This document shows positions 52,208 to 64,000 of a DNA stretch of 64,000 nucleotides, in pieces. The notes under the pieces were generated by a model, which searched no databases, was not told the DNA's origin, and was given only the letters and a program-made list of their open reading frames with translations. The translations under genes were made by a program, and so were the position numbers. Position 1 is the first letter of the stretch, and every line of letters starts with the position of its first letter. Source of the DNA: Mesorhizobium sp. (GTDB taxonomy: Bacteria > Pseudomonadota > Alphaproteobacteria > Rhizobiales > Rhizobiaceae); assembly GCF_017306545.1 (NCBI RefSeq), contig NZ_JAFKID010000018.1, positions 62,001 through 126,000 of the forward strand, read 5' to 3'.

Positions 52208-53569
52208 TCAGTTGCTGCGGCGCAGCCGCGCGGCAAAGAAGCCGTCGAGGCCCGACAATGCCGGCGATCCGAGGTCGAGGGCGGCAGGCGTCGTGCGCAG
52301 CGTGCCTTCTTCCGTCAGGAAGGGGGCGATGCCGGCCACTTCGCCCGGCCGTACCGGATCGAGCGCGATGCCGGAATGGTCCGACAGGAAGGCGGCGAGC
52401 AAATTCTCGCCTTCCTGCGGGTCGAGCGAGCAATTTGAAAAGACGACCGTGCCGCCGGGGCGCACGAGCATGGTCGCGCGCTCCAGTAGCCTTCGCTGCA
52501 AATCCGCCAGCTTGGCGATGTCGTCGGGCGTTTTCGTCCACGGCACGTCGGGATGCCGGCGCACCGTACCGGTCGAGGAACAGGGCGCATCCAGGAGCAC
52601 GGCGTCGAACAATTTTGGCGGCTCGTAGGCGAGGAGGTCGGCCTGTACCGTTTCGGCGGAAAGGTCGAGCCGGGCGAGGTTCTGTTGCAGCCGGGCCAGC
52701 CGGCTGCGCGAGGTGTCTACGGCGGTGACGTCCGCTCCGGCGAGGACGAGCTGGGCGGTCTTGCCGCCGGGAGCGGCGCACAGGTCGGCGACGCGCCGGC
52801 CCCGCACGTCACCCATCAGCTTCGCCGGCAGGGCGGCGGCGGCGTCCTGTACCCACCATGCGCCGTCGGCGAAACCGGGCAGCTCGGGAACCGGCCCGGC
52901 CAGCCGCTCGACGCGCACCGAGCCGGTCGGCAGGACGATGCCGCCGAGCCGCTCGGCCCATGCGGACGGATCGGCTTTCACGGTGAAATCCACCGGCGCC
53001 TCGTGCCGATGCGCGGCCAGGATTTTGGCCGCTGCCTCGTTTCCATAGGCTGCCGTCAGCCGCTCGACGAACCAGCCGGGCGCGTCGGCGGTTGCTGCCA
53101 GCGCCTCGGGCAGTTCGACATCCTTTGCCCGCGCCAGCGCGCGCAGCACGCCGTTGACCAGGCCGGAAAAGCGCGTCGTGCGCGGGTCTTCCTTGGCATG
53201 GGTGACGGCGAGATCGACGGCGGCGCTGTCGGGCACGTCGAGGAACAGGATCTGCGCCGCCGCGACATGCAGGATATGGGAGAGCGCGGTGGCGTTAGCC
53301 GGCAGCGGCTTTTCCAGCCGCCGCGCCAGAAGCGCCGCGATGGTGCCGCGATGGCGCAGCGCGGTGACGAGAATGGCGCGCACCAAAGCGCGGTCGCGCG
53401 GGTCGAGGGCGCGGTATTGCGGATGGCCATGCTCGGCGTCGGTCATGCCGTCGAGCGGGGTGTGGGCATCGATAACGGCCGCCAGGAGCCGCGCCGCCGC
53501 CTTGCGTGCGGCAAGGCCGGGGATGGCGGGACCTTCGCGGCGCGGACCGGATGGATGCTGCTTCTTCAT
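52208..53569 (-). CDS. rsmB: 16S rRNA (cytosine-967-C5)-methyltransferase-like RsmB
   Basis: A 453-residue NOL1/NOP2/Sun-family methyltransferase. The N-terminal NusB-like domain (about 20-160) precedes the Rossmann domain with SAM motif LCAAPGGKTAQLVLAG; the two catalytic cysteines are in LLDAPCSSTGTVRRHPD and FSNCSLDPQEGEN. Consistent with 5-methylcytosine formation in 16S rRNA. It is upstream of the heparinase gene on the same strand, with htpX beyond, a common rhizobial order. Confidence 0.93.
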   Translation of the reverse strand: MKKQHPSGPRREGPAIPGLAARKAAARLLAAVIDAHTPLDGMTDAEHGHPQYRALDPRDRALVRAILVTALRHRGTIAALLARRLEKPLPANATALSHILHVAAAQILFLDVPDSAAVDLAVTHAKEDPRTTRFSGLVNGVLRALARAKDVELPEALAATADAPGWFVERLTAAYGNEAAAKILAAHRHEAPVDFTVKADPSAWAERLGGIVLPTGSVRVERLAGPVPELPGFADGAWWVQDAAAALPAKLMGDVRGRRVADLCAAPGGKTAQLVLAGADVTAVDTSRSRLARLQQNLARLDLSAETVQADLLAYEPPKLFDAVLLDAPCSSTGTVRRHPDVPWTKTPDDIAKLADLQRRLLERATMLVRPGGTVVFSNCSLDPQEGENLLAAFLSDHSGIALDPVRPGEVAGIAPFLTEEGTLRTTPAALDLGSPALSGLDGFFAARLRRSN

Positions 53570-53927
53570 GCCGTCGCCATGTCACGGGGACGGCCGATTG
53601 TCGAGGCGGGATTAGCGAACCGACCGACGCAAGCGCTGCCCCTCACCCTTACCGTCTCCCCGTGAATGGCAGGGCTATGGCATATGGCGCAAAACCCCCA
53701 CCCCTAACCCCTCCCCGCAAGGGGGAGGGGGACTTTGCGGCACTGCTACAGCGCGCCAATCTCGCCGATTTCGGCTGAAACGGCGACGTCGGCGTCTCCC
53801 TCCCCCTTGCGGGGAGGGGTTAGGGGTGGGGGTACTGCGCCGTCGAAAATTCCATATGCGATCGCCCTGGTAAGGACGGGGAGAGGAAGCCGGCAGGCAG
53901 GTGAGAGGCGGCGGCGGCGAATCAGGC
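53570..53927. other. Non-coding region with REPIN-like pair
   Basis: This 358-bp gap between htpX and rsmB holds a degenerate TCTCCCCGTGAATGGC unit (about 53655-53672) and the strong inverted pair at 53695-53832. Promoter elements of rsmB must be near 53570-53690; I see none that is distinctive. Confidence 0.6.
53695..53832. repeat. REPIN-like inverted pair, CCCACCCCTAACCCCTCCCC family
   Basis: Left arm 53695-53732 reads CCCCCACCCCTAACCCCTCC and on into CCGCAAGGGGGAGGGGGA; the right arm at 53796-53832 is its near-exact reverse complement. Each arm is itself a hairpin (CCCCTCCCC...GGGGGAGGGG), and about 63 unrelated bases lie between. Copies of the same unit occur at 57716-57859 and, inside bkdB, at 60460-60624. 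Confidence 0.85.
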
Positions 53928-54920
53928 TCAGCGCCGCCTTGGCCCGGTCGGGTTGCGGCCCCAGGGATTGGATTTCGGCGCGGCCGGAGATGCTTCGGGC
54001 GCGGCGTTCCCCCATGGCCCGGCAGACGTCGTTTCGTTTGCCGCGGGGCTTTCCGCCGGGGCGGGTGCGCCGCGTTCCATCTCCCGCGCCATGTCCTGCA
54101 AGGCGGCGATGCGGTTTTCGGTGCTGGGATGGGTCGAGAACAGCGAATCCATGCCTTCGCCGTGCAGCGGGTTGATGATGAACAGGTGCGCCGTCGCCGG
54201 GTTGCGCTCTGCGTCCGGGTTGCGGATCGCTTCCGCGTTGCGGGCGATCTTGTCCAGCGCGGAGGCGAGCCACAGCGGCCGTCCGGTGATCTCGGCGCCG
54301 CGCCGGTCGGCGGCGTATTCGCGCGTGCGCGACACCGCCATCTGCACGATCATCGCCGCGAAGGGCGCCACGATCATCGCCAGCAGCACGCCCAGCATGC
54401 CGGCGCCGTTGTTGTTGTTGCGGTTGCCGCCGAAGAAGAAGGCGAAATTGCCGAGCATCGAGATGGCGCCGGCCAGCGTCGCGACGATCGTCATGGTCAG
54501 CGTGTCGCGATGCTGCACATGGGCAAGCTCGTGCGCCATCACGCCCGCCACCTCTTCGTAGGACAGGCGCTGCAACAGGCCGGTGGTGGCGGCGACCGCC
54601 GCATGCTCGGGATTGCGGCCGGTGGCGAAGGCGTTCGGCTGCGGATTGTCGATCAGGTAGACGCGTGGCATCGGCAGGCCGGCGCGCTGGCTGAGATCGC
54701 GCACGATGCCGAAATATTCGGGCGCGGCCTTCTCGTCCACTTCGACGGCGCGGTTCATCGCCAGCACCATCTTGTCGGCGTTCCAGTAGGAGAACAGGTT
54801 GGTGCCGGCGGCGACGACCAGCGCGATCATCATGCCGCCCGAACCGCCGATCAGATAGCCGACGGCCATGAACAGGGCCGTCATGACGGCGAGAAGCATG
54901 GCGGTGCGCATCGTGTTCAT
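53928..54920 (-). CDS. htpX: Membrane protease HtpX
   Basis: A 330-residue zinc metalloprotease of family M48 in the inner membrane that degrades misfolded membrane proteins. The zinc motif is H-E-L-A-H in [13 protein letters not shown], with the third ligand Glu expected in [15 protein letters not shown]. Two N-terminal spans (about 6-26 and 29-50) and two more after the zinc site are visible; the Ala/Pro-rich C-terminal tail from about 285 is disordered. Upstream of rsmB on the same strand. Confidence 0.95.
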
Positions 54921-55020
54921 CGTCTGCTCCGAATAGGCCGGCGAGGGTCGATCCCGCGCCGCCGATCGGCTATATGATGGTAAGAGATTGCGGCCGTTTC
55001 AATCCATGGAGGCAAGCGCG

Positions 55021-55242
55021 ATGAGCGGACAGGGCCACGTGCCGGAGTATCGTGTTACCGAGGTGCGGGCGAAGAAGCCGCTGACGCCCGCCGCCGAGCG
55101 TGCGTTGGCCGAGGCCGCCGCGCGGCGCGAGGCCTATCGCAAGCAGGAAGCGGTGCAGCCGAAGGAACTTGGCGGACGCGGCGGACTGGAGCCCGGCCGC
55201 TACGGCGACTGGGAGGTGAAAGGGCTGACGGCGGATTTCTGA
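55021..55242 (+). CDS. DUF1674/SDHAF4-like protein
   Basis: A 73-residue protein. The C-terminus ELGGRGGLEPGRYGDWEVKGLTADF is the DUF1674 signature shared with eukaryotic SDHAF4, an assembly factor that protects flavinated SdhA during succinate dehydrogenase maturation. An equivalent role here is plausible but no sdh gene is nearby. GGAGG is 6-7 bp upstream of the ATG at 55021. Divergent from htpX and convergent with the HAD phosphatase gene. Confidence 0.9.
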   Translation: MSGQGHVPEYRVTEVRAKKPLTPAAERALAEAAARREAYRKQEAVQPKELGGRGGLEPGRYGDWEVKGLTADF

Positions 55243-55254
55243 AGCCGGCGCCGC

Positions 55255-55917
55255 CTACCGTGAGGCCAGCGCCAGCCGGCCGCGGCCTGCCGGTTTCGCC
55301 TCGATCCCGGCATAGCCGGCGATGCTGGGGTGGCGCGTCGCCATCGGCTGCCGGTGCATGGCGCTGACCACCATTACGGCGGCGCCGGCCGCTTCGGCCG
55401 CCGCGATGCCGGCGGCGGCGTCCTCGAAGACGAGACAGTCCTCTATGGCGACGCCCAGCCTTTGCGCGCCGAGCAGGAAGCAGTCCGGTGCCGGCTTGCC
55501 CCTGGTCACGTCCTCGGCGGTCACGAGGACGGCCGGAACGGGGATGCCGGCGGCCTCCAGCCGGCGCAGCGCCAGGCGCCGCGGCGACGAGGTGACGATG
55601 GCCCAGGCCTGCTGCGGCAGCGCGCGAAGGAAGTCCACGGCGCCCTCGATCGCATGGATGCCGTCGATGTCGTCGATCTCCGCCTGCGTGACGGCCTCCG
55701 CCTCGGCGACCGGGTCGACGCCGGCCAGCGCAAGAGCGGCAATCACCTCGACACCGCGCACGCCGGCAATGGTCGGCAGGAACGTCTCCGGGTCGAGCCC
55801 GTGCTTGTTCGCCCAAGCTGTCCAGACACGCTCGCCCGGCGCGGCCGAGTTGAGCACGGTGCCATCCATGTCGAACAGGAAAGCGGAAAACTGTCGGTCT
55901 GTCGGCATGATCGTCAA
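55255..55917 (-). CDS. HAD-family phosphatase
   Basis: A 220-residue HAD hydrolase with a beta-phosphoglucomutase-like cap. Motif I is FLFDMDGTVLNSAAPGERVW (nucleophile and acid Asp), motif II is AIVTSSPR (Ser/Thr), motif III the lysine in VTRGKPAPDCFLLGAQRLG and motif IV VFEDAAAGIAAAEAAG. It probably acts on a small sugar phosphate or phosphoglycolate-like substrate. No operon partner. Confidence 0.93.
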   Translation of the reverse strand: MTIMPTDRQFSAFLFDMDGTVLNSAAPGERVWTAWANKHGLDPETFLPTIAGVRGVEVIAALALAGVDPVAEAEAVTQAEIDDIDGIHAIEGAVDFLRALPQQAWAIVTSSPRRLALRRLEAAGIPVPAVLVTAEDVTRGKPAPDCFLLGAQRLGVAIEDCLVFEDAAAGIAAAEAAGAAVMVVSAMHRQPMATRHPSIAGYAGIEAKPAGRGRLALASR

Positions 55918-56028
55918 CGCCCGGTCTGGCTGAGGAAGACCCTGTCTATAGAAGGCCGGACGTTCGCGGCCAATGGGGGCGATGCGGAACGTTGCCCCGG
56001 TCCGGCCGATTTGCCTCGACCGGCTGTT

Positions 56029-56478
56029 CTACCGGTCGATGCGCGTCGACAGGATGATCGACGACAGCGTGCGCTCGACGCCGTCCGTGGCGCCGATTTT
56101 GTCCAGCAGCGCGTCGAGGTCGCTGATCGACGGCGATTCGACGACGACGATCATGTCGAAACTGCCGCTGACGGAATGCAGCGTGCGCACCTGCGGCAGC
56201 GCGCGCAGGCTGCGCACCACCGTGTCCGCGTGCTTCGGCGTGACGGTGAGCAGCACATGCGCCCGTACCAGGCCCTGCTCGTAGGCAGCCGACAGCCTGA
56301 CTCCGTATCCGGCGATGATGCCGCGCGCCTCCAGCCGCTCGATGCGGCTCTGCACCGTGGTGCGCGATACGCCGAGCCGCCGCGCCAGCTCGGCGGTCGA
56401 TGCGCGCGCGTTCTCGCGCAGCAGGGCGATCAGCGCCTGGTCGGCATCGGTCGGCGTTTCGTAGGTCTTGTTCGTCAT
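56029..56478 (-). CDS. Lrp/AsnC-family regulator
   Basis: A 149-residue feast/famine regulator. The N-terminal helix-turn-helix is DQALIALLRENARASTAELARRLGVSRTTVQSRIERLE; the RAM ligand-binding domain follows (AHVLLTVTPKHADTVVRSLRALPQVRTLHSVSGSFDMIVVVES). It is divergent from the saccharopine-dehydrogenase-like gene, so likely controls it in response to an amino acid. The bkd operon lies about 1.5 kb away; bkd operons are often controlled by Lrp-type BkdR. Confidence 0.93.
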   Translation of the reverse strand: MTNKTYETPTDADQALIALLRENARASTAELARRLGVSRTTVQSRIERLEARGIIAGYGVRLSAAYEQGLVRAHVLLTVTPKHADTVVRSLRALPQVRTLHSVSGSFDMIVVVESPSISDLDALLDKIGATDGVERTLSSIILSTRIDR

Positions 56479-56537
56479 ATCGTCCGAAAACCCGCTTCGG
56501 AACGACGAATCGCATGCTTCCTTTCGTCAGGCAAGCT

Positions 56538-56550
56538 GCCAGAATCTGGC
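56538..56550. promoter_or_regulatory. GCCAGA-A-TCTGGC site
   Basis: A 13-bp odd-centred palindrome (GCCAGA, A, TCTGGC) 58 bp upstream of the saccharopine-dehydrogenase-like gene and between it and the lrp-type gene. The size and position fit an Lrp/AsnC operator. Inference. Confidence 0.5.
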
Positions 56551-56607
56551 TGACAGAAAGCGACCGCGGATCACCGCCGGCCGCAGAACCTTTTGAGGGA
56601 GAATGCC

Positions 56608-57711
56608 ATGAAGGAAATCGTTGTCGTCGGCGCGGGCAAGATCGGCTCGACCATCGCCGACATGCTGGCCGCCACGGGCGACTATCGCGTCACCATCGTC
56701 GACCGCTCCGCCGCCCAGCTTGCGGCGCTCGAGGTTCCCGCCGCCGTCGAGCGGCGCGAGATCGACATCGAGGCGGCCGGTGCACTGGAGGCGGTGTTGG
56801 CCGGCAAGTTCGCGGTGCTGAGCGCCGCTCCCTTCCACCTCACCACGCGCATCGCCGAAGCGGCCGCTTCCGCCGGTGTCCACTACATGGACCTGACCGA
56901 AGACGTCGCCTCGACCCGTCGTGTCAAGGAACTGGCCAAGGACGCCAAGACCGCCTTCATCCCGCAGTGCGGCCTTGCGCCGGGCTTCATCTCCATCGTC
57001 GCCAACGACCTCGCCAGCCGTTTCGACACGCTGGAGAGCGTGCGCATGCGCGTCGGCGCGCTGCCGCAGTACCCGTCCAACGCGCTGAACTACAACCTGA
57101 CCTGGAGCACGGACGGCGTCATCAACGAATATTGCGAGCCCTGCGAAGCGATCGTTGAGGGCGAGCTGGTCGAGGTGCCGCCGCTGGAGGAGCGCGAGGA
57201 GTTCTCGCTCGACGGCGTCACCTATGAGGCGTTCAACACCTCGGGCGGGCTCGGCACGCTGGCCGAGACGCTGAAGGGCAAGGTGCGCACCCTGAACTAC
57301 CGCACCATCCGCTATCCCGGCCATGCCGCGATCATGAAGGCGCTGCTTAACGACCTCGGCCTGCGCCATCGCCGCGAGGTGCTGAAGGACATCTTCGAGA
57401 GCGCGCTGCCGGCGACCATGCAGGACGTGGTCATCGTCTTCGTCACCGTGTCGGGCCGAAAGAACGGCCGCCTGTTGCAGGAGACCTATGCCAACAAGGT
57501 CTATTCGCAGCGCGTCGGCGCCTCGGTGCGCAGCGCCATCCAGATCACTACAGCGTCCGGCATCTGCGCGGTGCTCGACATGCTGGCCGACGGCAGCCTG
57601 CCGGCCAAGGGTTTTGTCAGGCAGGAAGACATCGCGCTCGACACCTTCCTCGCCAACCGCTTCGGCCGCGCCTATGCGCAGCACGAGGGCCTGACCCGGC
57701 TGGCAAGCTGA
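56608..57711 (+). CDS. Saccharopine dehydrogenase-family protein
   Basis: A 367-residue protein with the saccharopine dehydrogenase N-terminal NAD(P)-binding fold (VVVGAGKIGSTIADMLAATGDYRVTIVDRS) and the matching C-terminal domain (PQYPSNALNYNLTWSTDGVINEY, TSGGLGTLAETLKGKV). Members include lysine-degradation enzymes and carboxynorspermidine dehydrogenase-like proteins, so the substrate needs data; divergence from an Lrp-type regulator suggests amino-acid catabolism. AGGGAG precedes the ATG at 56608. Confidence 0.88.
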   Translation: MKEIVVVGAGKIGSTIADMLAATGDYRVTIVDRSAAQLAALEVPAAVERREIDIEAAGALEAVLAGKFAVLSAAPFHLTTRIAEAAASAGVHYMDLTEDVASTRRVKELAKDAKTAFIPQCGLAPGFISIVANDLASRFDTLESVRMRVGALPQYPSNALNYNLTWSTDGVINEYCEPCEAIVEGELVEVPPLEEREEFSLDGVTYEAFNTSGGLGTLAETLKGKVRTLNYRTIRYPGHAAIMKALLNDLGLRHRREVLKDIFESALPATMQDVVIVFVTVSGRKNGRLLQETYANKVYSQRVGASVRSAIQITTASGICAVLDMLADGSLPAKGFVRQEDIALDTFLANRFGRAYAQHEGLTRLAS

Positions 57712-57715
57712 ACCT

Positions 57716-57859
57716 TCCCCCTCCCCCTTGAGGGGAGGGTGGCCCGAAGGGCCGGGAGGGGTCGCCGCGGCCGTGCGCCGACCTCGTTTCGCGTCGGAGA
57801 GGTTGAGATGACCCCTCCCGCCTCGCTCTGCTCGGCACCCTCCCCTCAAGGGGGAGGGA
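57716..57859. repeat. REPIN-like inverted pair at two 3' ends
   Basis: The left arm (57714-57739, CCCTCCCCCTTGAGGGGAGG) and right arm (57837-57859, ACCCTCCCCTCAAGGGGGAG) are inverted copies, with a further mirrored GGGAGGGGTC/GACCCCTCCC pair inside. It lies between the convergent stops of the saccharopine-dehydrogenase-like gene (57711) and lpd (57867), and can act as terminator for both. Confidence 0.8.
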
Positions 57860-57866
57860 TCGCGCC

Positions 57867-59264
57867 TCAAATGTGCAGCGCGTGGCCCAGCGTCCTCAGC
57901 GCCGCTTCGGCGAACGCCTCGCTCTCAGTCGGATGGGCATGGATGGTGCCGGCGATATCCTCCAGCCTGGCACCCATCTCGACGGCGAGCGAGAACGCCG
58001 CCGACAGTTCCGACACGCCGGTGCCGACCGCCTGCACGCCCAGCACCAGATGGTTGTCGGCGCGCGCGACGACGCGCACGAAGCCGTCCTCGCCCTGCAA
58101 GGTCATGGCGCGGCCGTTGGCGGCGAAGGGGAACAGGCCGGTTTTCGTCTCGATGTTTCGGGCCTTGGCTTCTTCCGGCGACAGGCCGACCGAGACGATC
58201 TCGGGATCGGTGAAGCAGACGGCGGGCATGGCGCGCTTGTCCCAGCTGCGCTTATGACCGGCGACGATCTCTGCCACCATCTCGCCCTGCGCCATGGCGC
58301 GGTGCGCCAGCATCGGTTCGCCGGTGACGTCGCCGATGGCGTAGACGCCGCGCATCGATGTGCGGCACTGGTCGTAGATGCGGATGAATTTTTTCTCCAT
58401 GACGAGGTCGATCTGGTCGAGGCCCCAGCCTTCGGTGACCGGTTTTCTGCCGACGGTGACGAGCACTTTGTCAGCGGCGATTGTCTTCTCCGTGCCGTCC
58501 GCCGTCTCGACCAGCAGCGCGTCGCCTTTCTTCGACAGACCCTTCGCCTTGGCGCCCGTGAGCACCTCGACGCCGAGCGCCGCCAGCCGTTTCGACACCG
58601 GTCGCGTCAGTTCGGCGTCGTATTGCGCCAGAATGCGCGGCAGCGCCTCGACCACAGTCACCTTCGAGCCCATCTTGGCGAAGGCGGTGCCGAGTTCGAG
58701 CCCGATATAGCCGCCGCCGACCACCGCCAGCCGTTCCGGCACATGCGGCAGCGACAGCGCCTCGGTGGAGGAAATCACCGGACCGCCGAAGGGCAGGAAG
58801 GGCAGTTCGACCGGTGCCGAACCGGTGGCGATGACGACCGTCTCGGCCCTGATGACCTGTTCGCCGGTCTCGGTTTCCACCGTGACGGTCTTGCCGTCGC
58901 GGAACGTCGCCCAGCCCTGGACGTATTTGACCTTGGCCTTCTTCAGCAGGCCGGCGACGCCGCTGTTGAGCCGGCTTACGATGCCGTCCTTCCAGCCGAC
59001 CGTCTTGGCGAAATCGAGCTTGGGCGCCGTGGCCGAAATGCCGAGCGGGTTGTTGCCGGCGGCCGCGTGCAGCGCCTTCTCGAATTCTTCCGCCGCATGG
59101 ATCAGCGCCTTGGAGGGAATGCAGCCGACATTGAGGCAGGTGCCGCCCGGCCGGCCTGCCTCGACAATGACGGTGTCCAGCCCGAGCTGGCCGGCGCGGA
59201 TGGCGCACACATAGCCGCCCGGACCGGCACCGATAACGAGCAGCTTGCAGGAGATTTCTTTCAT
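57867..59264 (-). CDS. lpd: Dihydrolipoyl dehydrogenase (E3) of the bkd complex
   Basis: A 465-residue flavoprotein that reoxidises lipoyl groups of the E2 with NAD+. The redox disulfide is C43/C48 in GGTCLNVGCIPSK; FAD fold IGAGPGGYVCAIRAG, NAD fold VVGGGYIGLELGTAF, and the C-terminal His-Glu pair in HAHPTESEAFAEAAL. It is the last gene of bkdA1-bkdA2-bkdB-lpd and so probably a dedicated E3. A REPIN-like pair separates it from bkdB. Confidence 0.96.
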   Translation of the reverse strand: MKEISCKLLVIGAGPGGYVCAIRAGQLGLDTVIVEAGRPGGTCLNVGCIPSKALIHAAEEFEKALHAAAGNNPLGISATAPKLDFAKTVGWKDGIVSRLNSGVAGLLKKAKVKYVQGWATFRDGKTVTVETETGEQVIRAETVVIATGSAPVELPFLPFGGPVISSTEALSLPHVPERLAVVGGGYIGLELGTAFAKMGSKVTVVEALPRILAQYDAELTRPVSKRLAALGVEVLTGAKAKGLSKKGDALLVETADGTEKTIAADKVLVTVGRKPVTEGWGLDQIDLVMEKKFIRIYDQCRTSMRGVYAIGDVTGEPMLAHRAMAQGEMVAEIVAGHKRSWDKRAMPAVCFTDPEIVSVGLSPEEAKARNIETKTGLFPFAANGRAMTLQGEDGFVRVVARADNHLVLGVQAVGTGVSELSAAFSLAVEMGARLEDIAGTIHAHPTESEAFAEAALRTLGHALHI

Positions 59265-59330
59265 GCGACGTCTCCCGTGACGGCCGTAAACTTTGTTTCG
59301 TCGGCGCCGCCCCTCATCCGGCTGCCGCCA

Positions 59331-59452
59331 CCTTCTCCCCGTAAACGGGGAGAAGAACGCCCTTGCCCGCCTACCTCCTTGTCCCGCAACGCCTGCAATT
59401 GGCGAAGCCCGGGCGGCCGTCTTCTCTCTCCCCGTTTACGGGGAGAGATGTC
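59331..59452. repeat. Inverted palindrome pair between bkdB and lpd
   Basis: CCTTCTCCCCGTAAACGGGG at 59331-59350 is a hairpin, and its inverted partner CTCTCCCCGTTTACGGGGAG is at 59427-59446. The flanks also mirror (GGCGCCGCCCCTCATCCGGC near 59305-59325 with GTGAGGGGCGGCGC near 59468-59481). It lies in the 250-bp gap between bkdB and lpd, within the operon. Confidence 0.8.
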
Positions 59453-59514
59453 CGGCAGAGCAGTGAGGGGCGGCGCAACCGCTGGAGAGACAGGCAATTC
59501 GCTAGACATCGCAC

Positions 59515-60939
59515 TCAATCCACGAAAATCAGCGCCGGCGTCTCCATGAGAGCCTTGATGCGCTGGATGAAGACCGCTGCATCCCAGCCGTCGATGACGC
59601 GGTGGTCGAAGGACGACGACAGGTTCATCATCTTGCGCGGGATGAACTGCGTGCCGTCCCACACCGGCCGCACCATCATCTTGTTGACGCCGACGATGGC
59701 GACTTCCGGGTGGTTGATGACCGGCGTCGTCACCACGCCGCCCATGGCGCCGAGCGAGGTGATGGTGATGGTCGAACCGGAAAGCTCCTCGCGTGTGGCA
59801 AGGCCGGCCTTGGCGGCTTCCGCCAGCCGGTTCACCTCGACGGCGCAGCCCCACAGGTCCAGCGCCTCGGCGTGATGGATCACCGGCACCACCAGCCCGG
59901 CCGGCGTCTGCGCGGCAATGCCGATATGGACGCCGCCATGCTGGTGGATGACGCCGGCCTCGTCGTCGAACAGGGAATTCAATTGCGGCTGCTCGGCGAT
60001 CGCCTTCACCATGGCGCGCATCAGGAAGGGCAGCAGCGTCAGCTTCGGCCTTTCCACCCCCTTGGCGGCGCGCTTTTCCTTGTTGAGCGCGGCGCGCAGG
60101 TCTTCAAGTGCCGTGACATCGACCTCCTCGACATAGGTGATGTGCGGGATGCGGGACTTGGCGATCCGCATCTTCTCGGCGATCTTGCGCCGGAGCCCGA
60201 CGACCTTGATCTCCTCGACGGCATCGTTGCGCGCGAGGCCGCCGCCGGTGGCAGGTGCCGTCTGCGGCCCGTGGGCGAAGAAGCCGTCGAGGTCCTCATG
60301 CGTAATGCGGCCGGCAGGGCCGCTGCCCGTGACCTGGCGCAAGTCGATGCCGGCCTCTTTCGCCCGGAGCCGAACGGCGGGCGAGGCCAGCGGCCTTTCG
60401 CCTTCGGGGCGGAGAGAGGTGATCGGGCGCGCTACTCTGTGAGGTATGGGCGCGGCGCTACCCCCACCCCTAACCCCTCCCCTCAGGGGGGAGGGGGATT
60501 CTGTCGGCGATATACTCCGGTCCAAATCTTCCCAGCGTGATGGCGATGCTTCGGACTTGGCAGAGGCTTTGGATGTCGAAGCGTGTTCCCCTCCCCCTTG
60601 AGGGGAGGGGTCAGGGGTGGGGGTATCTTTCGCGCTGACGGCAGGCTTGGCTTCCGCCCTCGCCGGCGCAGCATCGCCCTCCTTCACATTCCCGTCGCCA
60701 GCCACTTTCAGCCGCACGATGGGCGAGCCGACGGACACCGTGTCGCCGATCTCGGCGCCCAGCCACAGCACCTCGCCGTCGACCGGCGAGGGGATTTCCA
60801 CGGTCGCCTTGTCGGTCATGACGGCGGCCAGCATCTGGTCCTCGCGCACAAGGTCGCCGACCTTCACATGCCATTCGACCAGTTCGGCCTCGGCGACGCC
60901 TTCGCCGACATCCGGAAGCTTGATGACGTGCTCGCCCAT
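59515..60939 (-). CDS. bkdB: Branched-chain 2-oxoacid dehydrogenase E2, with repeat-derived linker
   Basis: A 474-residue dihydrolipoyl acyltransferase. The N-terminal lipoyl domain (about 1-80) carries lipoyl-lysine K44 in MTDKATVEIPSP; the peripheral-subunit-binding domain is at about 186-221 (VRLRAKEAGIDLRQVTGSGP); the catalytic core ends with DHRVIDG (H446, D450). The linker is odd: residues 106-160 are encoded by a 165-bp inverted repeat (60460-60624) and read TPTPDPSPQGGGEH at one end and PSPLRGGVRGGG at the other. The frame is intact. Start 2 bp after bkdA2. Confidence 0.95.
   Translation of the reverse strand: MGEHVIKLPDVGEGVAEAELVEWHVKVGDLVREDQMLAAVMTDKATVEIPSPVDGEVLWLGAEIGDTVSVGSPIVRLKVAGDGNVKEGDAAPARAEAKPAVSAKDTPTPDPSPQGGGEHASTSKASAKSEASPSRWEDLDRSISPTESPSPLRGGVRGGGSAAPIPHRVARPITSLRPEGERPLASPAVRLRAKEAGIDLRQVTGSGPAGRITHEDLDGFFAHGPQTAPATGGGLARNDAVEEIKVVGLRRKIAEKMRIAKSRIPHITYVEEVDVTALEDLRAALNKEKRAAKGVERPKLTLLPFLMRAMVKAIAEQPQLNSLFDDEAGVIHQHGGVHIGIAAQTPAGLVVPVIHHAEALDLWGCAVEVNRLAEAAKAGLATREELSGSTITITSLGAMGGVVTTPVINHPEVAIVGVNKMMVRPVWDGTQFIPRKMMNLSSSFDHRVIDGWDAAVFIQRIKALMETPALIFVD
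60460..60624. repeat. REPIN-like pair inside the bkdB coding sequence
   Basis: ACCCCCACCCCTAACCCCTC (60460 on) through GGGGGAGGGGGA and, about 90 bp later, TCCCCTCCCCCTTGAGGGGA (60587 on) through GGGGTCAGGGGTGGGGGT are inverted copies of the unit at 53695-53832. The element is exactly 165 bp (55 codons), contains no stop in the bkdB frame and is placed between the lipoyl and subunit-binding domains. Confidence 0.9.
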
Positions 60940-60942
60940 CGC

Positions 60943-61956
60943 TCAGGCCTCCATGGTCTCAATAAGCGCCCGGCCGACGCGCGCGGGGCCGGGGAAATAG
61001 TCCCATTCCTGCGCATGCGGATAGGGCGTGTCCCAGCCGGCGACGCGCGCCACCGGCGCCTCCAGATGGTAGAAGCAATGCTCCTGCACGAGCGCCGCCA
61101 GCTCGGCACCGAAGCCGGAGGTCATCGTCGCCTCATGCACGACGACGCAGCGGCCGGTCTTTTTCACCGAGGCGACGATGGCGTCGAGGTCGAGCGGCAG
61201 CAGCGTCCTGAGGTCGATCACCTCGGCGTCGATGCCGGTTTCCTCCGCCGCGGCCTGCGCGACATAGACCATGGTGCCGTAGGCCAGCACGGTGACGGCA
61301 GAGCCTGGCCGCCGCACCGCCGCCTTGCCGAGCGGCACGGTGTAGTGGCCGTCCGGCACCTCGCCGAGTTCATGCTTGGACCATGCGGTCACCGGCCGTT
61401 CGTGATGGCCGTCGAAGGGGCCGTTGTAGAGCCGCTTGGGTTCGAGGAAGATCACCGGGTCGGGGTCCTCTATCGCCGCGATCAGCAGGCCCTTTGCGTC
61501 GTGGGGGTTGGACGGCACCACCGTCTTGAGGCCGGAAACGTGGGTGAACAGCGCCTCCGGGCTCTGGCTGTGCGTCTGGCCGCCGAAGATGCCGCCGCCG
61601 GTCGGCATGCGCACCACGATGGGGCAGGTGAAGTCACCGTTAGAACGATAACGGATACGGGCAGCTTCCTGTGTGAGCTGGTCGTAGGCAGGATACATGT
61701 AGTCGGCGAACTGGATTTCCACGCAGGGCCTCAGCCCGTAGGCGGCCATGCCGATAGCGGTTCCGACGATGCCGCTCTCGTTGATCGGCGCGTCGAAGCA
61801 GCGGCTCTTGCCGTATTTCGCCTGCAAGCCTTGCGTGCAGCGGAAGACGCCGCCGAAGAAGCCGACGTCTTCGCCGAACACCACCACCTTCTCGTCGCGC
61901 CCCATGGACACGTCCATGGCGTCGCGGATGGCCTCGATCATGGTCTTGCGGGGCAT
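60943..61956 (-). CDS. bkdA2: 2-oxoisovalerate dehydrogenase E1 beta
   Basis: The 337-residue E1 beta subunit of the branched-chain 2-oxoacid dehydrogenase, which with E1 alpha decarboxylates 2-oxoisovalerate, 2-oxoisocaproate and 2-oxomethylvalerate using thiamine diphosphate. GEDVGFFGGVFRCTQGL, the FDAPINESGIVGTAIGMA segment and FADYMYPAYDQLTQEAARIRYRSNG are typical. Start at 61956 (MPRKTMIEAIRDAMD). It leaves a 247-bp gap to bkdA1 filled with palindromic repeats and only 3 bp to bkdB. Confidence 0.97.
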   Translation of the reverse strand: MPRKTMIEAIRDAMDVSMGRDEKVVVFGEDVGFFGGVFRCTQGLQAKYGKSRCFDAPINESGIVGTAIGMAAYGLRPCVEIQFADYMYPAYDQLTQEAARIRYRSNGDFTCPIVVRMPTGGGIFGGQTHSQSPEALFTHVSGLKTVVPSNPHDAKGLLIAAIEDPDPVIFLEPKRLYNGPFDGHHERPVTAWSKHELGEVPDGHYTVPLGKAAVRRPGSAVTVLAYGTMVYVAQAAAEETGIDAEVIDLRTLLPLDLDAIVASVKKTGRCVVVHEATMTSGFGAELAALVQEHCFYHLEAPVARVAGWDTPYPHAQEWDYFPGPARVGRALIETMEA

Positions 61957-61984
61957 TATTGGGCTCCAACGGACGTGAGAGCGT

Positions 61985-62176
61985 CCTTCTCCCCGTTTAC
62001 GGGGAGAAGATGCCGGCAGGCAGATGAGGGGCGGCGCGAAAGCCGCCAATGCTGGCGCTGCCCCTCATCCGTCCCTTCGTGACACCGGCCTTCGGCGTTC
62101 GAAACTCGAAAAGCCAAGCAATTGGCTTTTCGTCTGCTACGCAGACCGTTTCTCACCCCCGTAGACGGGGAGAAGG
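61985..62176. repeat. Composite palindromes between bkdA1 and bkdA2
   Basis: A CTTCTCCCC-GTTTAC-GGGGAGAAG hairpin (61985-62009) with the tail ATGCCGGCAGGCAGATGAGG, an inverted partner starting CTGCCCCTCATCC near 62059, then the AAAAGCC double palindrome (GAAAAGCCAAGCAATTGGCT at 62108, GTCTGC-TAC-GCAGAC at 62132-62146) and a CCCCCGTAGACGGGGAGAAG unit ending near 62176. It fills most of the gap inside the operon. Confidence 0.8.
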
Positions 62177-62203
62177 AAGTGCGTGCGTCGGCGCCCGTCA
62201 TCG

Positions 62204-64000
<1,797 letters not shown>

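Follow-up and report, generated by a model that had tools for sequence, protein, structure and literature searches.

The bkdB gene of a Mesorhizobium sp. raises the question of how a long palindromic repeat can lie inside the coding sequence of an enzyme, and whether the stretch in question is a repeat at all or a native part of the protein. The gene was found in a window of 64,000 nt, which is the whole stretch of DNA that was analysed. The stretch within bkdB is very probably a copy of a palindromic element dispersed in Mesorhizobium, which would be translated in frame as the flexible linker joining the lipoyl to the E3-binding domain. The features of the locus are as follows.

59515..60939, minus strand, bkdB, dihydrolipoyl acyltransferase (E2) of the branched-chain 2-oxoacid dehydrogenase, 474 aa (ORF and Pfam)
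60709..60927, minus strand, lipoyl domain PF00364, residues 5-77 (Pfam)
60588..60625, minus strand, N-terminal-side arm, read as TPTPDPSPQGGGE (inverted-repeat analysis and translation)
60497..60587, minus strand, inter-arm loop, translated as HASTSKASAKSEASPSRWEDLDRSISPT (by eye different from the other loops of this genome that were compared)
60459..60496, minus strand, C-terminal-side arm, read as ESPSPLRGGVRGGG (inverted-repeat analysis and translation)
60289..60393, minus strand, E3/peripheral subunit-binding domain PF02817, residues 183-217 (Pfam)

The assignment to bkd follows the original prediction and the neighboring E1 and E3 genes, and the E2 domains themselves were identified by Pfam. 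The two arms (60459-60496 and 60588-60625) have 38 nt each, are 95% complementary and are spaced by 91 nt, and each of them is a hairpin in its own right. Positions 60460-60624 make up exactly 55 codons, that is, BkdB residues 106-160, and the bkdB frame is free of stops throughout the element. Since these residues are flanked by the Pfam lipoyl (5-77), E3-binding (183-217) and 2-oxoacid_dh catalytic (240-472) domains, the element lies wholly within linker, and the proposal that it lies in frame at the E2 linker was confirmed by both the ORF and the Pfam analyses. The RNA fold of 60455-60630 reaches -109 kcal/mol (z = -10). The dN/dS values between this bkdB and that of the nearest relative are 0.089 and 0.077 on the two flanks of the linker; therefore, the BkdB enzyme is under purifying selection. 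The AlphaFold model of BkdB was uninformative (mean pLDDT 36.5).

Two more palindromes of the window were compared with the bkdB element.

53694..53834, no strand assigned, second copy of the same element, long-loop class (repeat comparison)
57719..57858, no strand assigned, related intergenic palindromic element with the inner CCCTCCCC...GGGGAGGG core only (arms 81% complementary)

In the former, 53694-53737 is 91% identical to 60460-60503 and 53798-53834 is 95% identical to 60589-60625, so that the pair at 53695-53832 had rightly been predicted to be the same element. The latter has only the inner core (CCCTCCCCCTTGAGGGGAGGG) in common with bkdB. As its outer arms differ, it is a related yet distinct element, and its earlier description (57716-57859) as a shorter form of the bkdB repeat is not upheld. 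Inverted repeats of other sequence, of CTTCTCCCCGTAAACGGGGAGAAG and GAGGCTCGCTGCGCTCGCACCTCG type, occupy gaps around the bkd genes (59304-59476, 61978-62176 and 63617-63782). A search of 53000-64000 against Rfam gave nothing at gathering scores.

The repeat unit is dispersed in the genome, as shown by the search that the original prediction had called for. The 17-nt arm core has four matches in the window, where shuffles predict 0.01, and 83 matches with up to two mismatches in the whole genome (4.8 Mb in 66 contigs), where the reversed control gave none. Fifty-five places were analysed, leaving out the contig-end places C10:18 and C58:12. Judged by eye, many of the two-arm copies in this genome belong either to a short-loop (~84 nt across the cores) or to a long-loop class (~130 nt), each with its own recurring loop sequence. 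A test for length classes had been proposed in the original prediction. By eye, the 91-nt loop of bkdB fits neither of the two common ones. Several contig ends of this assembly (contigs C10, C15, C17, C24, C45, C47, C54 and C58) are located in or beside copies of the element.

The linker of bkdB was then followed through the genus. A search of 146 genomes, counting the present one, gave a single match at E <= 1e-110 in each of 141, and all of these were analysed. By reading of the translated linkers, 39 carry this element, eight carry a CGTC-type palindrome and 94 carry neither (plain linkers, mostly rich in Ala, Pro and Lys). The linker is not the same in all relatives, as 102 of the 141 genomes are without this element. 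Among the 39 carriers, three are contig fragments starting in or near the right arm (L045, L047 and L116) and three are degenerate (L084, L086 and L089). Titled public records, which overlap the 141-genome set and were sorted by simple patterns that miss degenerate copies, gave 19 linkers with the element, six of the CGTC type and 48 with neither (73 of 80 loci parsed). M. ciceri WSM4083 and M. metallidurans STM 2683 are among the titled carriers, as is a record under the title Pseudaminobacter arsenicus.

The CGTC-type palindrome of the eight relatives has a CGTC tag, a 9-bp stem starting with AT and a 5-nt loop, the pattern being exact in both arms in five relatives and in one arm in three. 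Compared by tag, stem and loop, it agrees with the CGTC class of REPs (the tag, a stem of 8-9 bp starting with AT, a loop of 4-5 nt, a head-to-head dimer). Six carriers share a recurring short PAGASHGSRPSFGPP-like insert inside the left arm. It was considered as a third palindrome and rejected, its longest stem having 7 nt and two of the six lacking any stem of at least 6 nt.

The reading frame is kept in nearly all carriers. In detail, 31 of the 34 element linkers with both anchors have a length that is a multiple of three, in spite of 21 distinct lengths within the group (binomial chance at one third, 3e-12, for relatives that are not independent of each other). All measurable plain linkers (93/93) and all CGTC linkers (8/8) are in frame. 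The three out-of-frame carriers, against 0/93 among the plain genes, are L109, L161 and L110, the last of which contains Ns. In L109 and L161, both placed on long contigs, the frame switches inside the element region and both halves of the gene still look constrained; one arm of L109 includes ten consecutive G. These two breaks may be due to sequencing error, to slippage at a slip-prone site or to real loss.

The lengths of the linkers do not fit a single clean insertion. The median is 282 nt with the element, 279 nt with the CGTC type and 216 nt in plain genes, so that carriers are just ~22 codons longer than plain genes, and the clean 55-codon gap predicted for the relatives was not found. 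Among the 24 parsed carriers (of the 31 in frame), the part outside the arms has a median of 66 aa, compared with 72 aa for the whole plain linker, and the arms add 28 aa. The net gain is about that of the arms, which is why the expected gap is absent, and the idea of a clean empty site of 55 codons was rejected. Either there is native linker between the arms, or there was an insertion with later loss.

The first of these possibilities is a serious competitor, with a chance somewhat below even. Accordingly worded, two single arms, or a pair followed by exchange, would enclose the native linker, instead of one insertion of 165 bp. Apart from the lengths, it is favored by the loop being rich in Ala, Ser, Pro and Lys, near the plain composition, by its score against plain linkers, which is above that of its own shuffles in 17 of 24 cases, and by its position outside both common loop classes (by eye). 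The figure of 17/24 is weak, though, with seven of the 31 in-frame carriers unparsed, and the loops in three other proteins of this genome (CapA-like, AcnX and UPF0280-like, see below) resemble the genomic loop classes by eye, and therefore insertion of the whole element occurs outside bkdB.

In the bkdB tree made without the linker, the carriers are scattered, with 25 changes of state, of which well supported branches require at least 11 (support is poor in 48 of the 138 inner branches). Spread of a bkdB allele on a recombination tract around the linker was rejected: identity beside the linker is not raised among carriers, since the value was equalled or exceeded in 60 of 60 label shuffles, which argues against a recent spread on a long tract. 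The gene nearest by linker is also the nearest by the rest of the gene in seven of 31 carriers and in 37 of 93 plain genes, a difference that is suggestive only. The loops look alike by eye over many distant carriers, which suggests a single old origin with later repeated loss or short exchange.

The element is not confined to E2 genes. Besides bkdB, nine ORFs of this genome were extracted as traversed by it and six were kept upon inspection. The dropped ones are L222 (one degenerate arm), L187 (129 aa, probably no gene) and L183 (NicO-like, with an uncertain start nearby). Five of the six kept proteins were named by Pfam. The host frame is open in bkdB and in all six ORFs, and the inserts of these six unrelated proteins, among them the glycyl-tRNA synthetase beta subunit (GlyS), are lacking in most orthologues. 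The insert of a presumably PDS-like oxidoreductase (named with the help of Pfam) is found also in the nearest relative, G050, whereas 18 of the 19 relatives aligned are without it, the distant matches of G003 and others (L277-L282) being left out. Similarly, the CapA-like protein has it in this genome and in G050, with absence in 12 of 13 aligned. The same distribution applies to a protein without a Pfam match, which we take to be UPF0280-like (absent in 13 of 14 aligned). Its copy in the present genome (L213/L323 comparison) is longer between the arms than its counterpart at this position in the nearest relative, as if loop classes could replace one another in place.

The NDP-forming acyl-CoA synthetase has an insert that is absent in 10 of 13 aligned relatives (L321 and L322 of G068, with 32-33% identity, were left out). 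This insert holds a perfect arm-core match (C31:46136), and its longest exact inverted arm of 11 nt is barely above that of shuffles (10 nt). The enzyme of G050 contains a strong, different palindrome with exact arms of 30 nt. Two more relatives have other longer stretches; those of L310 and L311 were rejected as palindromes, being no more palindromic than shuffles. In GlyS, an insert of ~50 residues separates the core from the anticodon-binding domain. G050 is without it and the site is short in 20 of 25 relatives, with hairpin-bearing inserts in four (by eye) and a longer loop of other kind in one. At a second GlyS site, after LAEELAPIV, the repeat SPLEGEMAGRPEGV...ISPSRGEI replaces a short native loop in frame in six of the 25 relatives (L247 and L250-L254); its core was met in 27 of the 448 loci compared. 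The empty site of the orthologues is clean in the PDS-like, CapA-like, UPF0280-like and GlyS genes and is not clean in bkdB.

The sixth protein is aconitase X (AcnX), where the insert coincides with a gene fusion. Among 146 genomes searched, 63 matched at E <= 1e-180, and in three (the present one, G050 and G096) the match is continuous over the large and swivel domains. The junction was read in 23 relatives, 21 of which have separate genes overlapping at stop and start in different frames; two further loci, L354 and L355, have no swivel match, and for 37 of the 60 other genomes separation was taken from the end of the match. In the three fused genes, the inserts are placed at the junction where the genes of the others overlap. 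By eye, the inserts of the present genome and of G096 are this element. The junction in G050 (L283:2841-3025) has a different, longer palindrome with TTGCTTCGCAAGCCACCT arms, which was seen in no other of the 448 loci.

Fusion of the same two subunits is described for the Type-I aconitase X, a gene fusion of Type-IIa in which the swivel domain (domain 4) comes first, in the order 4-linker-1-2-3 (PMC8184944). In the protein studied here, by contrast, the order according to Pfam is large domain followed by swivel, and the joint is encoded by the palindrome. As joining of Type-IIa subunits without a linker kept activity in the account of PMC8184944, a working AcnX fusion is plausible.

The recurrence of palindromes at the same positions could also mean that inserts are selected and not merely tolerated. 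They might serve as linker cassettes that can be exchanged, or their RNA hairpins, when translated, might delay the ribosome between one domain and the next. Such selection is improbable, though worth keeping in mind. Different palindromes are indeed located at one site in relatives (bkdB, GlyS, AcnX and the acyl-CoA synthetase of the nearest relative), the linkers of carriers agree with the gene tree less often than plain linkers do, and the hairpin predicted for the mRNA is very stable. On the other hand, identity beside the linker is not raised, the 94 plain genomes do without either palindrome, and repeated hits are predicted from permissive sites alone.

The original prediction had called the repeat REPIN-like. 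REPINs, which come in length classes, are pairs of inverted REP-like hairpins separated by a spacer; in the strict sense, they require a RAYT transposase. The two inverted hairpins, the spacer and the two main length classes are common to the present element, and to this extent the name is fitting. A RAYT tyrosine transposase (PF01797, Y1_Tnp) was found in none of 16 genomes of the genus, the present one included, at E <= 0.001, with controls positive in five of 14. Likewise, a regular GTAG tag was not seen, as only two of the 66 outer ends of 33 two-arm matches read GTAG outward by eye (L001 and L206). A REPIN proper, mobilised by RAYT, is thus quite unlikely. Sequence of the ACCCCTAA type stands before the inner hairpins. 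The 33 two-arm matches gave no regular duplication of the target site, with TA on both sides in four of them.

It is very hard to maintain that an old Pro/Gly-rich native linker merely resembles the repeat. E2 linkers being Ala/Pro-rich by nature and carriers being spread over the genus would speak for it, but the DNA is 91-95% identical to another copy, the hairpin stands far out of its shuffles, most genomes lack it and the same family is found in unrelated proteins. A pseudogene or an assembly artefact is just as implausible: copies at contig ends and three broken frames would speak for it, against it stand 31 genomes that likewise have the element in frame, in some of them on one contig of >6 Mb (L033, L034 and L069), and the purifying selection on bkdB.

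A translated copy of the dispersed element therefore stays the preferred reading of the bkdB stretch, and the interpretation originally given is partly supported. Its dispersal, the open frame, the absence in many relatives, the different palindromes at the same sites and the purifying selection on the BkdB domains are observed directly. From the DNA alone, we infer that the element is translated, neutral and mobile. A mobiliser would spread palindromic elements through the genome and copies that break genes would be lost. The rare copies that are in phase and free of stops would survive at linkers and loops, because a Pro/Gly/Ser-rich peptide would be harmless there. In BkdB, the peptide would merely lengthen the swinging arm of the lipoyl domain, and in AcnX the same process may have bridged two adjacent genes into a single frame.

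More tentatively, dispersed palindromes might constitute a standing supply of linkers and gene joiners, with permissive sites being filled, emptied and refilled by different families, so that the linkers of enzymes, a tRNA synthetase among them, would be mobile and exchangeable and fusions could arise in one step. In-frame elements of this kind offer a concrete and testable route from mobile-looking DNA to protein linkers and fused adjacent genes, and Mesorhizobium has enough sequenced species for gain, decay and replacement to be watched at a single site. Annotators should be aware that a PSPQGGG or SPLRGGVRGGG stretch can, in this genus, be a translated repeat.

Palindromes in frame have been described before, from Rickettsia as well as from other bacteria (PMC3733652). 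That paper reports REP dimers within the ORFs of many species, proposes that flexible linkers tolerate them and names tRNA synthetase genes as some of the targets; the name Mesorhizobium does not occur in its main text. Compared with its intragenic GTAG and CGTC REPs, the palindrome in the bkdB of eight relatives fits the CGTC class, and the main element regularly shows neither tag. The enterobacterial RU elements, according to the abstract of PMC2759123, are similarly small mobile sequences that keep the frame in annotated genes, with other sequence and hosts; that abstract does not mention one site struck by different families. Among the best-ranked openly accessible literature, no description was found of an untagged Mesorhizobium family, of different palindromes per site or of the gene fusion, all of which thus appear to be undescribed in the literature searched.

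The closest parallel is given by the Rickettsia palindromic elements (RPE), which lie in frame within genes that likely encode working proteins (PMC3733652). The parallel drawn in the original prediction is apt, as both are dispersed palindromes placed in frame inside genes, and the Mesorhizobium element is absent from many orthologues. The likeness is one of behavior and kinship is not claimed. Unlike the RPE of PMC3733652, the present element is GC-rich, it belongs to a rhizobial genus with genomes of ~3-9 Mb, it sometimes shares its sites with different palindromes, and in one case it joins two genes into a fusion.
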